Origin: Methanococcoides methylutens MM1
Lineage (GTDB): Archaea; Halobacteriota; Methanosarcinia; Methanosarcinales; Methanosarcinaceae
Assembly: GCF_000970325.1 (NCBI RefSeq)
Contig: NZ_CP009518.1
Location: 434,001-498,000, forward strand
Direction: 5' to 3'
Length of the DNA stretch: 64,000 nucleotides
A program made the translations under genes and the position numbers. Position 1 is the first letter of the stretch. Each line of letters opens with the position of its first letter. This document shows positions 1 to 38,747 of this stretch, piece after piece. The notes beneath the pieces were generated by a model that saw only the letters and a program-made list of their open reading frames with translations, searched no databases and was not told the origin of the DNA.

Positions 1-3000
1 TACTTTTAAGTGTTTTGATTTTACTGGTAGCTTCGCCAGTGGTATCGGCAGAAGAACAGAGAACAAAAATAACTTACATCGGTTATTCTGATGCTTATTC
101 TGAGAATGAATGTCTGGAGATTGCCAGTCAGACGAATGATCACAGCTGACTTGATAGAATACACTTTCATTGCATACGCTAACTCAACATATGGTGCAAG
201 CGAAGAGTTACTGGCAGCTGCAGAAACGGGATTCTTGGAAACACAGGATGTTATACTCTGTGATATGGTAGGAGCTGATGTGTATACAGCATATAACGGC
301 ACTATAAATGAAAGTCTGATAAGGGCACAAGAGAAAGGAACCGAATTGTATAGTATAAGTTCTAAAAACACCCCTTCATATTTTGATTATATATCAGAAA
401 ATACGGATGATTCAGACCCTATATGCACATACTATCAGGGAATAGATACCACTGAGAAAGGAATCGAAAATGCTGAGAACCTGCTGATGTATCTGGCAAT
501 GAGGACAAAAATAACTTACATCGGTTATTCTGATGCTTATTCTGAGAATGAATGTCTGGAGATTGCCAGTCAGACGAATGATCACAGTGACTTGATAGAA
601 TACACTTTCATTGCATACGCTAACTCAACATATGGTGCAAGCGAAGAGTTACTGGCAGCTGCAGAAACGGGATTCTTGGAAACACAGGATGTTATACTCT
701 GTGATATGGTAGGAGCTGATGTGTATACAGCATATAACGGCACTATAAATGAAAGTCTGATAAGGGCACAAGAGAAAGGAACCGAATTGTATAGTATAAG
801 TTCTAAAAACACCCCTTCATATTTTGATTATATATCAGAAAATACGGATGATTCAGACCCTATATGCACATACTATCAGGGAATAGATACCACTGAGGAA
901 GGAATCGAAAATGCCGAGAAGCTGCTGATGTATCTGGCAACAGGGTGCTCCACTTTTTCGGAAATAGCTATTCTTGGAAATGATGAGGTCGATTTCAATA
1001 AATTTATATTTATATTGGGCACAGAGTTTAATGAAGTTTCTCTAAATAATGCAACCCTTGATACAAACATCTCTGAGAACTTGAATGTTACCATATTCAC
1101 TCCTTCTAATCCTGTACCTGACGAATTTGATTTCTCAGGATATGGAGTTATCTTCATAGAGTCTCAGAATGAATCATTGGTAGATGGATGGACTTCCAGT
1201 ATAAAATCTGCCAAGTCAGGTGGTGCAATGGTAATAGGGTACAATCTTTCATCCAATGTAACGGTATCCAATGTTGACCTTTATTCTGAGGAATATACAG
1301 ATATAGAAAGGTATTGGATTCAGGGTGGGGATTCCAACATGGAATCCATGCTCAAATTCATGGGTCAAAAGTTCAGTGATCAATGGGTAAGTGAATCTAT
1401 CTCCAAACCTGAAGTAGTTCACCCAAAAATCAATGTGACTTATATTCTAAACGACTATGGAACCCTTTCCACTCTAAACAATGTTCTTTCAGAGAGGGCT
1501 GTTGTAACCGATCGTTTCAATGTATCTGTTATGAACGGTGAGTATGCGGTTGAAAACCTGGTTGATGTTTCTGATCAGGATGTCATAATACTTTACATGC
1601 TAAGGGGGACACAGATTACTGAATTAAAGGCAGTCTTCCAGGAAACTAAAGCTGAAGACACACAAATTGGAATGTTTGGTATAGATAATCCTGAGATCTA
1701 TGGCATTGCTACTTTTGATATGAACAGTTCTAGCTATAATTTTTTGCAAGAATACTTTTACAATAATGGCTACTCCAATATGGAACAGTGGATAAGGGCT
1801 ATCGGCTTCACTTTTGAAGGTGCATATATTGAATATTCAGAAGCAACGCAACCTTCTATACCTGATCATGGTATTTATCATCCTGATGCTTTCCCAAGAA
1901 TATTTGAGGATAGCGGCGAATATCTTGAGTGGTACAAAAACCACGGTTATAATGCATCCGCACCAACCATAGGCATAATAGCAAATTACAAGATTGGAAA
2001 AGATCCTCTCGTATTGACCGCGGATGATCAAATTATCAGGAACCTTGAATCAAAAGGTTGCAACGTAATTTATTCTACGTTTGAAGTAATTACGGATGAT
2101 GGCTCAGAATGTTTTGTAAATAATGATGAAGTTATTGTGGATTCTATAATCTCTCTGAAAGGTTTTAATTTTGAATATAAAGATCCTTCTGTTGGGGTTA
2201 AGTCTTTGAATGAATACAATGTTCCGGTGATAAAAGGTCTTCTTGACACATATCATACCCCAGATATGTACAATTCAAGTGTTCATGGACTGAACACTCT
2301 GTCTTTACCATCTCAGGTAACTATGCCTGAACTAGAAGGCTTGATTGATTATATATGGATAGCAGGAGGCTCAGAAGTCGAAGGTTATCACCAGCCTTTG
2401 ACATATCAGATCGATTGGATGTGCGATAGGGCTATATCCTGGGCAGAACTTAGTAAAATGTCCAATTCTGACAAAAAGGTCAGCATCATATACTACAACC
2501 ATGAAGGTGGTAAGAACAATATCGGTGCAAGTTATCTGGATATTGCTTCTAGTTTTGAAGTATTGCTTGATAGTATGAATGCCAGTGGTTACGATACAGG
2601 TAATGGTAGCATTCCAAACAGCAGTGAATTCATTGACCTATTCATAGAAAGCAGAAATGTAGGTTCATGGGCACCGGGTGAACTTGAAAAGGTTGTTGAA
2701 TCGGGCAATGTCACTCTTGTTCCGGTAGATGACTATCTGGAATGGTACAACACTCTTCCACAATCTGTAAGGGATGAAGTTGAAGCAAGGTGGGGTGAAG
2801 CACCAGGTAATATAATGGTCTATGAAGGTCAATTTGTTATCCCAACAATACAGTTAGGAAACATCAACTTCATACCACAGCCTACCAGAGGTGACCTCTC
2901 AGATGAGTTAGTGATGTATCATGACAAGGATCTTCCACCTACTCATCAGTATCTTGCAACATATTTCTGGATCAATCAGGTCTATGATGCCGATGCAATG

Positions 3001-5493
3001 ATTCATTTCGGTACTCACGGTACACAGGAATGGTTGCCGGGCAAAGAAGTAGGATTGTGGCGCTATGATTATCCATCAATTATGGTGGCTGATACTCCTG
3101 TAGTATATCCTTACATTATGGACAATGTAGGGGAAGGTACTCAGGCTAAGCGCCGTGGTAATGCGGTGATTATAGATCACTTGATACCTCCTATAACAGA
3201 TTCAGGTCTTTATGGTGAACTTGCAGAGATGCACGACAAGATACATGAATATGAAGAGGCTGCAGATGCTAATAACTCTGCAAGGATGGCTCTCTATCGA
3301 AATAGTACGATCGAGAAATATGAGAATCTTTCAATGGAGTACGACCTCGGTGTGAGTCCTGACCAAATGCGAGCCATGTCAGAAGTGGAATTTGAGGATT
3401 TTGTTACAAACGACGTCCATAATTACTTGCATGAGCTTCAGGGCACCCTTATGCCTCTTGGCCTCCATGTTTTTGGAGTTGCCCCTGCAGATAATAAACT
3501 TGTGTGTATGGTAAAGTCAATGCTTCATAATGATTTCATCCAGCACATAGCAACTGTTATTCAATATGAAAATACAAGCTGGGATGAAGAAGATCTGGAG
3601 AATGTATCCAATTATCGGGCCAGTGATTTGTTGAATGCCACCTTACTCAATGGAGCTAATGTATCTCAGGCTCAATTAGATGTTCTGGGAATCGTTGATT
3701 CTAATATTACAGCAGATCTTAATATGGCTCATGATTATTCTATACATCTAAAGAATACTACCCATGAAATTGATCAGACTCTTAATGCTTTGAACGGTGG
3801 CTATGTTGAACCCGGACCAGGTAATGATCCAATAAGGAACCCGGATACTCTACCTACAGGAAGAAACTTTTACAGTTTTGATCCAAGAACTATTCCGGAC
3901 GCAGAAACTGAAATTTTGGGTGCAGCACTGGCTGATCAAATGCTTGAACAATATAATTCAACGCATGGAACATATCCTAAAAAGGTGACGTATATCTTGT
4001 GGTCTGTTGAAACAATGCGCCATGAAGGTTTAATGGAAGCACAGATATATTCTCTTCTTGGGGTTAAATTGGAGAGGGATAGTAATGGCTATATTAGTGG
4101 ATACAAAGTAATTCCACAGGAAGACATGACTCATCCAAGAATAGATGTTGTTGTAACTCCTTCAGGACTTTACAGGGACACTTTCCCACATCATCTTCAG
4201 TGGATAGATCAAGCAGTTCGTGAAGTTGCTGCACTTGACGAAAGCAATGAGTCAAATTATGTCAGATGGAACTCTCTGATAATGGAGGAAGCATTGCTTG
4301 AACAGGGATATGACAATGATACTGCTCTTATACTCTCCCGTTCAAGAATTTTCAGTGAATCTCCTGGAGCTTATGGAACAGGTCTTCCGGGAGCTATAAC
4401 TGCAAGTGATACGTGGGAAAGTGAGGATGAACTGGCAGACCTGTACATGTCTCGTATGTCCAATATATACGGACAAGACATATGGGGTGAGAGTTATGAA
4501 GATGTCTTCAGGATGAACCTTCAGGATGTTGAAGTAGCTATGCACAGTGATTCTTCCAATCTTTATGGTATCATTGACAATGATGATTTCTACCAGTATC
4601 TGGGAGGACTCAGTCTTGCTGTGAGGTCACTTACAGGCGAGAATCCGGAAATGTATGTTGCTGATTTTAAGAATGCAGATAATCCGGAGATTATAACTTT
4701 TGAAGAAGCCTACAGGAAAGATATCCGTTCAACACTTTTCAATCCTAAATTCATATCCGGAATGATGGAATATGATTACGCAGGTGCCCGTGAATTTATG
4801 AATACTATAGAGCATATCTGGGGACTGGATGTAACAACGCCGGATATGGTCACTGATTCGGACTGGGATGAGATCTATGCTGTATATGTGGAAGACAAAT
4901 ATGATCTGGGTGTTGACGAGTTCATGAAATCGGATGACAATGTTTATGCCTATCAGGCTACGCTTAAGAGAATGATCGAAGCTGAGCGAAAAGGTTACTG
5001 GGATGCATCAGACGAGGTTCTCCGGAACCTGGTGGCTGAATACACAAAATCAGTTGTAGAGAATGGTGTAACATGCTGTCACCACACATGTGGAAATGCT
5101 CTGCTTGATGAGTATGTGCAGGGAATAATGTCTGTACCTGGTGTTGTCGACCAGACAACCATCGATGAGTACAACAAATTGATGCAGGATGCAACACAAC
5201 GTTATCCTGAAACCAGTTCCCACAAGAGCAGTTCGAACACTCCTTCGGCAAACGTAGTCAATAGCACAACAACCAATGTTGATGGAGGGTATGGAACTAC
5301 TACCGACCAGCCAACGGACGCTGCCCAGCAAAGCACACCAGATAATTATGTAGAAGGGTATGAAATGACTCGAGAGAGCACTCCTGAAGAGTCATCATCT
5401 TCATCTTTCTCAGGATCTGACATAATGGGAGCACTGTTAGTATTAGCAGCAGTGGGTGCTATATCTATCGGACTCAGAAGACGCCGACTTTAA
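1..5493 (+). CDS. Secreted, membrane-anchored CobN/BchH-like metal chelatase (5' end outside window; frameshift near 146)
   Basis: Large subunit of the CobN/magnesium-chelatase H family, which binds the tetrapyrrole during metal insertion. The family core is plain at about 2880-3230 (HFGTHGTQEW, then GEGTQAKRRG). The start lies left of the window: frame 3 from base 3 reads the end of a signal peptide (LLVASPVVSAEEQ) and runs to a TGA at 147-149. The main 1800-codon frame (open from 91) follows after a one-base insertion. Residues near the N-terminus are present twice (see repeat). The C-terminus has a Ser/Thr-rich stalk, one membrane segment (GALLVLAAVGAISIGL) and RRRR, so the chelatase domain is predicted outside the cell. 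Secreted CobN-like proteins are known in Methanosarcinales; their substrate is unknown. The frameshift separates signal peptide from body: either a young pseudogene or a sequence error. Confidence 0.85.
63..945 (+). repeat. Tandem duplication, two 441-bp units, inside the CobN-like gene
   Basis: Copy 1 (about 63-504) and copy 2 (about 505-945) are head to tail. Over about 440 bp I see three substitutions near the end (GAGAAA/GAGGAA, GCTGAG/GCCGAG, AACCTG/AAGCTG) and one indel: copy 1 reads CACAGCTGAC where copy 2 reads CACAGTGAC. The unit is 441 nt (147 codons), so the duplication itself is in frame; the extra C at 146 breaks the reading frame. Near identity implies a recent event. Confidence 0.95.
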
Positions 5494-5530: not shown

Positions 5531-5668
5531 TTTCTCTGTTTATTTTATTTCATTTGCTTTAGCATGTGATTTTCACTGAAAACAATTACAATTAAAAATA
5601 ATTAAAGTTTGTTTTATTACGAATGAGTTTTTACTACATCATTACCTGATCTTCTGGTGGTGATAAAA

Positions 5669-6829
5669 ATGATAACTGATCCGATCTGTAAAGCTCATGT
5701 AAACGAGGACACTGCCTATGTTACGGACTATGGCGGCAAAAAGTACTACTTCTGCTCCCCCGAATGCAAGAATAAATTCGACCAGCTTGAAAAGAGCGTA
5801 ATACGCCTGAAGCGTAACATTGGTGAGAAGGAGAGGATCTCTTTTGGAAAGCTCAAGAAGGAGATCATAAATCTGGGGATCTGTACTCTGTGCGGTGCCT
5901 GCGTCTCTTCCTGTGAGTCCATAGCCTTTGTGAACAGCCAGCCTAAACTGATTGATAAGTGCACTGCCTGTGGTGTCTGCTACAACCAGTGCCCGAGGAC
6001 CGTCACAAGAGAAGAGGACCTTGTGGGCAAGCTCAGGTTCGGCTATGCAGCCAGGTCTGCAATGCCCGGCTCTAAGGGTCAGGATGGTGGTGTTGTCACC
6101 TCTCTGCTTGCATACGGTCTTGAGGAGGGGCTTCTTGACTGTGCCATCGTTACAAGGAAGTCGGAAGATGATCCCTGGAGGCCTGAACCTTTTATTGCAA
6201 CGACCGCAGATGAGGTTCTTGAGTCGGCAGGAAGCATCTATTCCCACAGCATGACCATGGAGCCGCTAATGAGTGCTATCAAGCAGGGTATGAGGAGCAT
6301 TGCATTTGTGGGTCCGAGTTGTAATATAGATGCTGTTCACAAGATGCAGACAAGTCCATACGGATTCCTTCATCTGTTCCTCAGGGCAAAGGTCCTGAAG
6401 TTCGGTCTTTTCTGCATGGACGGTTTCGAGCATGAGGGTATCAGGGAATTTGTGCAAGCGAAAGGAATGGACCTCAATGACATCGAGTCCATGAAGATCC
6501 GTAAAGGTGTCTTTGAATTTGGTATGTCTGATGGCCTAAAAAGCTATGATCTCTCAGAACTGGACCGTTACAGGTCCACTTCCTGTAAGTTCTGTACCGA
6601 TATGGCTGCAGAGAATTCGGACATCTCTTTTGGAGGTGTGGGTACACCACAGGGCTGGAGCACTGTCCTGGCACGTTCATCCATTGGCTAGGAGATCCTC
6701 TGCGAGGCGATAGACAATGGCTATATTGATGCAAGGCGCCTTGAGAAGAAGGAAATGGATCGTGCCGTCAATCTTGCAAAGATGAAGAAGGTACAGATGT
6801 ATGGTCTGAACCGCAGGCAAAAGAAATGA
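5669..6829 (+). CDS. YHS domain-F420 dehydrogenase beta-subunit (FrhB-like) fusion with in-frame amber codon (probable pyrrolysine)
   Basis: The N-terminal 40 residues form a YHS metal-binding domain (DPICKAHV, then KYYFCSPECKNKF). Two 4Fe-4S motifs follow (CTLCGACVSSC; CTACGVCYNQCP), then the FrhB/FpoF N- and C-terminal domains that bind FAD and react with coenzyme F420. The frame meets TAG at 6689-6691 (codon 341) after ARSSIG and continues for 45 more family-like codons (EILCEAIDNGYID...) to TGA at 6827-6829. FrhB homologues normally continue at this point, so the amber is internal, not terminal. ATG 5669 is chosen over GTG 5657 because GGTGGTGAT (5656-5664) is a strong SD five bases upstream. 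The protein is about 386 residues. The redox partner is unknown; no hydrogenase or Fpo genes are adjacent. Confidence 0.8.
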
Positions 6830-37343: not shown

Positions 37344-38747
37344 ATGGCAACAGAATATTTCTTAAGAATGGGTGACGGTGCAAGGATCTTCATGACAAAG
37401 GAAGACATTCTTGCTGACATCGAGGCAGGTTCCGCAGATGCAGCAGACCTTGGTGACATCCCAGCACTTACCGAAGACCAGATGGACAAGATGCTTGAGA
37501 TCATCATCAATCCTAACAGGATCGTTGGTGTTGAGCCAGGTATGGAAGTTCCTGTAACACACGACATCGGTACAATCAGGATCGATGGTGACCAGGGTAA
37601 CAGTGGTGTAGGTATCCCTGCAAGCAGACTCACCGGTGCAATGATGCACGAGCGTGCATTTGGTGCAGACACAATGGAACTCGGTCACATCGATTACAGT
37701 TTCAAGCCTGTCAAGCCAGTCATCGCACAGGAACAGCAGACAATGGAAGTCTGCCAGCAGAACATGGTCGTACCTCTTCTCTACGGTGCAATGCCAAACA
37801 TGGGTCTCTACTACACCCCTGATGGTCCATTCGAGAACCCAGGTGACCTCATGAAGGCTTTCAAGATCTCCGAAGCTCAGGAATCCATCCAGAAAGCTGG
37901 TGACCACGGAATCCGTGACATGGTCTGGATCATGCAGAGACTCCAGCATGTTGGTGGCGACGGTGTCAACTTCGATACCATCGGTGCAGCCGGTGACGGT
38001 GACATGTATGCATCCCTTAACGCTATCGAAGCATTGAGGAAAGAATTCCCAGGTATCTACATTGAAGCAGGTATGGCAGGAGAACTCGTTCTTGGTATGC
38101 ACGGACAACTTGAGTACGATGGTACAACACTTGCAGGTCTGTGGCCACACCAGCAGGCACCACTTGTAGCAAAGGCAGGAGCAAACGTCTTCGGTCCGGT
38201 ATGTAACACCAACACCAGCAAGTCATCCGCATGGAACCTTGGTCGCTCAGTTACATTCATGAAGGCAGCTGTTGAGGCATCAACAATTCCATGTCACGTA
38301 GATATGGGTATGGGTGTCGGTGGTATCCCAATGCTTGAGACCCCACCAATAGATGCAGTAACAAGGGCAAGCAAGGCAATGGTCGAGATCGCAGGCGTCG
38401 ATGGTATATAGATCGGTGTCGGTGACCCACTCGGTATGCCAATTTCACACATTATGGCATCCGGTATGACCGGTATGAGGGCTGCTGGTGACCTTGTTGC
38501 AAGGATGCAGTTCGACAAGAACATGAGAATCGGTGAAGCAAAGGACTATGTTGCAAAGAAACTTGGTGTTTCAACCGTGGATCTCTCTGATGAGTATGTC
38601 ATGAGGGAGCTTAGGGAAGAACTCGACGTCGGTGTAATTACCTCTGTACCAGGATGTGCAAAGGGTATTGCAGCTAAGATGAACATCGAGAAACTCCTCG
38701 GCATCAACATCAACAGCTGTGACAAGTTCAGGGAAACCACTGCTTAA
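37344..38747 (+). CDS. mtbB: Dimethylamine methyltransferase MtbB (pyrrolysine at codon 356)
   Basis: Transfers a methyl group from dimethylamine to MtbC. 467 residues when TAG 38409-38411 is read as pyrrolysine; the codon lies in the family-conserved context VEIAGVDGI[16 protein letters not shown] and the frame continues to TAA 38745-38747. Other family marks: [37 protein letters not shown]. Codon use is strongly biased, as expected for a highly expressed catabolic enzyme, and produces a long spurious antisense frame. A hairpin follows before the permease. Confidence 0.97.

Follow-up and report, generated by a model that had tools for sequence, protein, structure and literature searches.

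The window analysed here is a 64,000-nucleotide stretch of the Methanococcoides methylutens MM1 genome. Its forward strand carries, at positions 5669 to 6829, a gene for a YHS-ferredoxin-FrhB protein (YHS-FrhB), a predicted F420-dependent oxidoreductase subunit. The gene runs from the ATG at 5669 to the TGA at 6827-6829 and has 386 codons when the TAG found in frame at codon 341 (6689-6691) is read as pyrrolysine, while standard annotation would end it at codon 340. The presence of GGTGGTGAT immediately 5' of the ATG at 5669 and the starts of the orthologs favoured this start codon over the GTG at 5657. Pfam models placed a YHS domain at residues 2-39 (5672-5785), a two-cluster 4Fe-4S ferredoxin domain at residues 66-109 (5864-5995) and the FrhB N- and C-terminal domains, which by homology form an FAD-containing F420 reductase module, at residues 126-360 (6044-6748), all on the forward strand. 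The cysteines C72, C75, C78 and C82 and C98, C101, C104 and C108 of the ferredoxin domain were invariant in the ortholog alignment, as were C218, C249, C306 and C309 in the FrhB part. The CobN-like gene at 91-5493 has an extra N-terminal repeat, seen as a near-perfect 441-bp tandem duplication at positions 59-940 of the window (98% matches).

Both FrhB_N (residues 126-200, 95.5 bits) and FrhB_C (residues 209-360, 135.6 bits) exceeded the Pfam cut-offs, and given its span the FrhB_C match crosses the TAG at codon 341. When the protein was truncated in silico at codon 340, the FrhB_C score dropped from 135.6 to 116.4 bits and the match reached no further than profile position 129 of 150; the codons past the TAG supply 19 bits and the final 20 profile positions of the match. 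These 45 codons (6692-6826) encode the remainder of a helix at residues 338-349, a strand at 353-357 and a helix at 360-372 in the predicted structure. The initial annotation had described an in-frame TAG at codon 341 followed by 45 codons continuing the fold to a TGA, a description that proved exact.

We then searched for orthologs in 60 related genomes and in GTDB contigs. Full-length orthologs of YHS-FrhB were found throughout the Methanosarcinaceae, in a second family of the order, in Methanoperedens and in some Asgard archaea. Every genome sampled from one Methanococcoides subclade, six in total and including Methanococcoides vulcani SLH 33 (locus L095), had the TAG at codon 341 and no further internal stop, and the window protein was 91-96% identical to the other five orthologs of this subclade. 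Four further Methanococcoides genomes yielded an ortholog, 75-78% identical to the window protein, and have TAT at codon 341; all other Methanosarcinaceae orthologs examined have TAT or TAC, both encoding tyrosine, while the position is occupied by leucine in Methanoperedens and by methionine or asparagine in Asgard archaea. Comparison of the orthologous codon and a search for homologues ending at codon 340 had both been proposed with the initial annotation; none of the orthologs not cut by a contig end, in the 60 genomes and the GTDB contigs, stops at codon 340. The N-terminal YHS fusion, which had been called unusual, turned out to be shared by dozens of orthologs across the Methanosarcinaceae and Methanoperedens; as most orthologs have the YHS domain, M. 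methylutens is not exceptional in having the fusion.

Comparison of the two parts of the gene among the six TAG genomes showed a pN/pS of 0.070 before the TAG and of 0.075 after it, with a pS of about 0.46 in both parts. The codons downstream of the TAG vary almost solely synonymously, and the TAG itself is invariant (6/6). Purifying selection after the TAG is thus the same as on the rest of the gene and far beyond chance, and the decay of downstream codons that would have spoken against the initial annotation did not appear. A genuine nonsense mutation, in a gene that is decaying or that produces a functional truncated protein, is hardly conceivable as the explanation of the TAG. The standard code does read TAG as a stop, but six species have retained the codon while fourfold sites accumulated about 1.6 substitutions each, and the downstream pN/pS is 0.075 whereas a pseudogene tail would drift toward a ratio of 1. 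Sequencing error as the source of the TAG was ruled out by the six-genome conservation and the selection on the tail. Since the FrhB_C match and the alignment run through the TAG, which is subclade-wide and followed by a constrained tail, truncation and decay were rejected together with sequencing error, and we conclude that the TAG is translated.

In the genome, the machinery for pyrrolysine maps to around 300-306 kb, where pylS, pylB, pylC, a pylD-like gene and a tRNA-Pyl with a CUA anticodon are clustered (the assignment of pylC and the pylD-like gene relies on location and sequence rather than on a family model). The pylS gene was present in the 11 Methanococcoides genomes searched (11/11), and the window itself contains the canonical pyrrolysine gene mtbB, for the dimethylamine methyltransferase, located as the initial annotation had it with an in-frame TAG (37344-38747, forward strand). 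The gene thus combines an in-frame TAG and a conserved, constrained tail, in a host that has PylS, tRNA-Pyl and the biosynthesis genes. Reading of the TAG by a near-cognate tRNA (e.g. tRNA-Tyr or tRNA-Gln) is known for UAG elsewhere, and tyrosine is the ancestral residue at position 341. However, a dedicated tRNA-Pyl (CUA) and PylS are present, and no second CUA tRNA was found in an 821-kb sample of the genome, which makes near-cognate reading in place of pyrrolysine extremely unlikely.

The same sample, taken in stretches that cover 34% of the genome, was used to determine stop usage, with ORFs scored by codon usage. The 511 predicted genes ended in 268 TGA, 237 TAA and 6 TAG. The six genes reaching a TAG were mtbB, mttB, YHS-FrhB, a gene for a CcmF-like protein, one for a delta-60-repeat protein and pylB, and five of the six have an extension with a positive coding score, the exception being pylB. 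TAG terminators are therefore nearly absent from the sample and most ORFs that reach a TAG continue into coding sequence, a stop usage that fits TAG as a general sense codon for pyrrolysine in this genome. Of 81 predicted genes in a Methanolobus-like genome, 9 terminate at TAG and their extensions are short or non-coding; TAG thus seems to serve as a normal stop in that genome. None of the 71 predicted genes sampled from a Methanosarcina-like genome had a TAG stop; the rarity of TAG is therefore not unique to Methanococcoides, and scarcity alone is no proof of reassignment. The pylB gene (L057:5489-6601, minus strand) ends at a TAG whose non-coding extension overlaps pylC, and this TAG is possibly either the sole true TAG stop of the sample or a feedback site. 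For M. mazei, M. acetivorans and M. burtonii, the literature treats the pylB TAG as a terminator (PMC2933860). As pylB seemingly ends at its TAG, the codon may not be sense everywhere.

The TAG of YHS-FrhB is not unique in the genome. The CcmF_C-like membrane protein has an in-frame TAG at codon 181 (L069:6429-7424, minus strand; genome positions 1666432-1667424), which is common to the six Methanococcoides genomes and to genome G006 and is replaced by histidine in three others. The delta-60-repeat protein (L038:1820-3151, plus strand) has one at codon 324, retained in two further genomes (L202 and L203). A HerA-like ATPase of genome G006 (L079:7748-9034, plus strand) has a TAG at codon 350 in that genome only, with serine in nine relatives. 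The HerA-like ortholog of genome G002 (L192) has a different in-frame stop, also TAG, at about query residue 82, which is absent from the other genomes. The patterns of the CcmF-like and HerA-like genes indicate that in-frame TAGs come and go between relatives like sense codons, as would be predicted of a reassigned code, and make the TAG of YHS-FrhB one of several.

The initial annotation had also suggested that the protein is produced in two lengths depending on readthrough. Termination at the TAG would give 340 residues and readthrough 386, the supply of pyrrolysine setting the ratio and tying F420 redox flow to methylamine metabolism. In Methanosarcina, UAG can have either meaning, sense or stop (PMC2933860), and every invariant cysteine lies upstream of codon 341, so the short form could still bind its cofactors. 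However, none of the orthologs found is naturally short, the 340-residue form would be without the C-terminal end of the FrhB fold (most of one helix, a strand and a further helix), TAG terminators are nearly absent from 34% of the genome, the tail is as strongly constrained as the body, and no PYLIS-like stimulatory RNA structure was detected 3' of the TAG (z 0.16; changes on both sides in 1 of 33 pairs). We therefore regard regulation by two lengths as very unlikely. A duplicated release factor was rejected as only one aRF1 scored over the cut-off. UAG is presumably still recognised by aRF1, and some truncated YHS-FrhB product may therefore exist.

Very probably, TAG341 is instead a sense codon at which pyrrolysine is inserted, giving one 386-residue F420 electron-transfer protein, with a single origin from tyrosine in the ancestor of the subclade. 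The tRNA-Pyl (CUA), charged by PylS, would insert pyrrolysine at TAG341, and the ribosome would proceed to the TGA at 6827 to make a single full-length product. The TAG would go back to a single change of a conserved tyrosine codon (TAT/TAC to TAG) in the common ancestor of this Methanococcoides subclade, where the new codon would have been tolerable because TAG in the genus appears largely vacated as a stop and generally read as pyrrolysine. The proposal that an F420-linked Fe-S flavoprotein carries pyrrolysine outside the methylamine methyltransferases almost certainly stands, given the conserved TAG, the constrained tail and the pyrrolysine machinery, while the two lengths and the unusual fusion that accompanied it do not. 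This would extend the use of pyrrolysine to an F420 electron-transfer protein, with a conservation strong enough to exclude an accident.

Kivenson et al., in Science in 2025, reportedly described a "Pyl code" in which TAG is a pyrrolysine sense codon across many genes in related archaea, and are said to have done proteomics on M. burtonii. The archaea using this code are reportedly likewise methanogens of the Methanococcoides type, in which few genes or none end at TAG. Since other in-frame TAGs of the genome also seem to be read in this way, YHS-FrhB is in all likelihood a new, well-conserved example of this recently described code variant and not a one-off. Genome G006, which we take to be M. 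burtonii, has TAT (tyrosine) at site 341, so that YHS-FrhB would not be among its confirmed pyrrolysine proteins. Thg1 of Methanosarcina acetivorans, likewise no methyltransferase, also contains pyrrolysine, at a site where relatives have a sense codon, and this residue is not essential for activity (PMC2933860). However, the pyrrolysine of Thg1 was reported in M. acetivorans only, whereas the TAG of YHS-FrhB is kept in six species and has a constrained tail.

Orthologs with tyrosine and with presumed pyrrolysine at one position within the same genus constitute a natural experiment on whether pyrrolysine outside the methyltransferases is neutral or useful. Neutral evolution would predict about 4.2 sense changes at the TAG codon over the clade tree, and the probability of observing none was 0.015, but the probability of no reversion to tyrosine alone was 0.36. 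Residue 341 is thus constrained, but these tests did not establish a preference for pyrrolysine over tyrosine. In the structure model of YHS-FrhB (mean pLDDT of 74, about 91 near residue 341), residue 341 lies within helix 338-349, after strand 331-335, and its role would be structural rather than catalytic. The TAG clade has the changes F344L and N345C, one helical turn from residue 341, and T331S, at otherwise conserved columns, and such changes cluster within 10 residues of position 341 (P of about 0.009 in a post hoc test). The presence of F344L and N345C in the same helix and the same clade hints at an accommodation of residue 341. That pyrrolysine was selected there, its long imine-bearing side chain giving a property that tyrosine lacks and F344L and N345C being co-adaptations on the same face, seems unlikely; if true, it would be a case of functional pyrrolysine outside methyl transfer.

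The best match to YHS-FrhB, by sequence (E 4.9e-54) and by fold, was chain B of PDB 8RIU, the F420-reducing zeta subunit of a CODH subcomplex of the ethanotroph Ca. Ethanoperedens (PMC11493965). Both proteins combine a ferredoxin domain with an FrhB-type F420 reductase domain with FAD, but the zeta subunit has no YHS domain and has lysine where YHS-FrhB would have pyrrolysine 341. No CODH gene was recognised at the locus. The F420 modules of FrhB, FpoF and Fsr share FrhB_N, FrhB_C and the invariant cysteines with YHS-FrhB, and in all of them FAD presumably mediates electron transfer between F420 and FeS clusters. YHS-FrhB differs from FrhB and FpoF by its added YHS domain and by scores below the NCBIfam equivalog cut-offs (186.8 of 331.5 for frhB and 120.8 of 475 for FpoF). 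From its domains, YHS-FrhB would pass electrons from F420 to FAD and on to the 4Fe-4S clusters, as the F420H2/F420 subunit for a putative redox partner. The gene stands alone and its neighbours vary between genera, with no conserved operon partner to name that redox partner. Eleven loci have a radical SAM gene upstream, and three have a siroheme-type NIR_SIR gene. In L109, L111 and L112, two of which belong to Methanolobus, YHS-FrhB lies near genes for a divergent siroheme-type sulfite/nitrite reductase and a radical SAM protein. The siroheme-type reductase neighbourhood is a possible lead to the redox partner.
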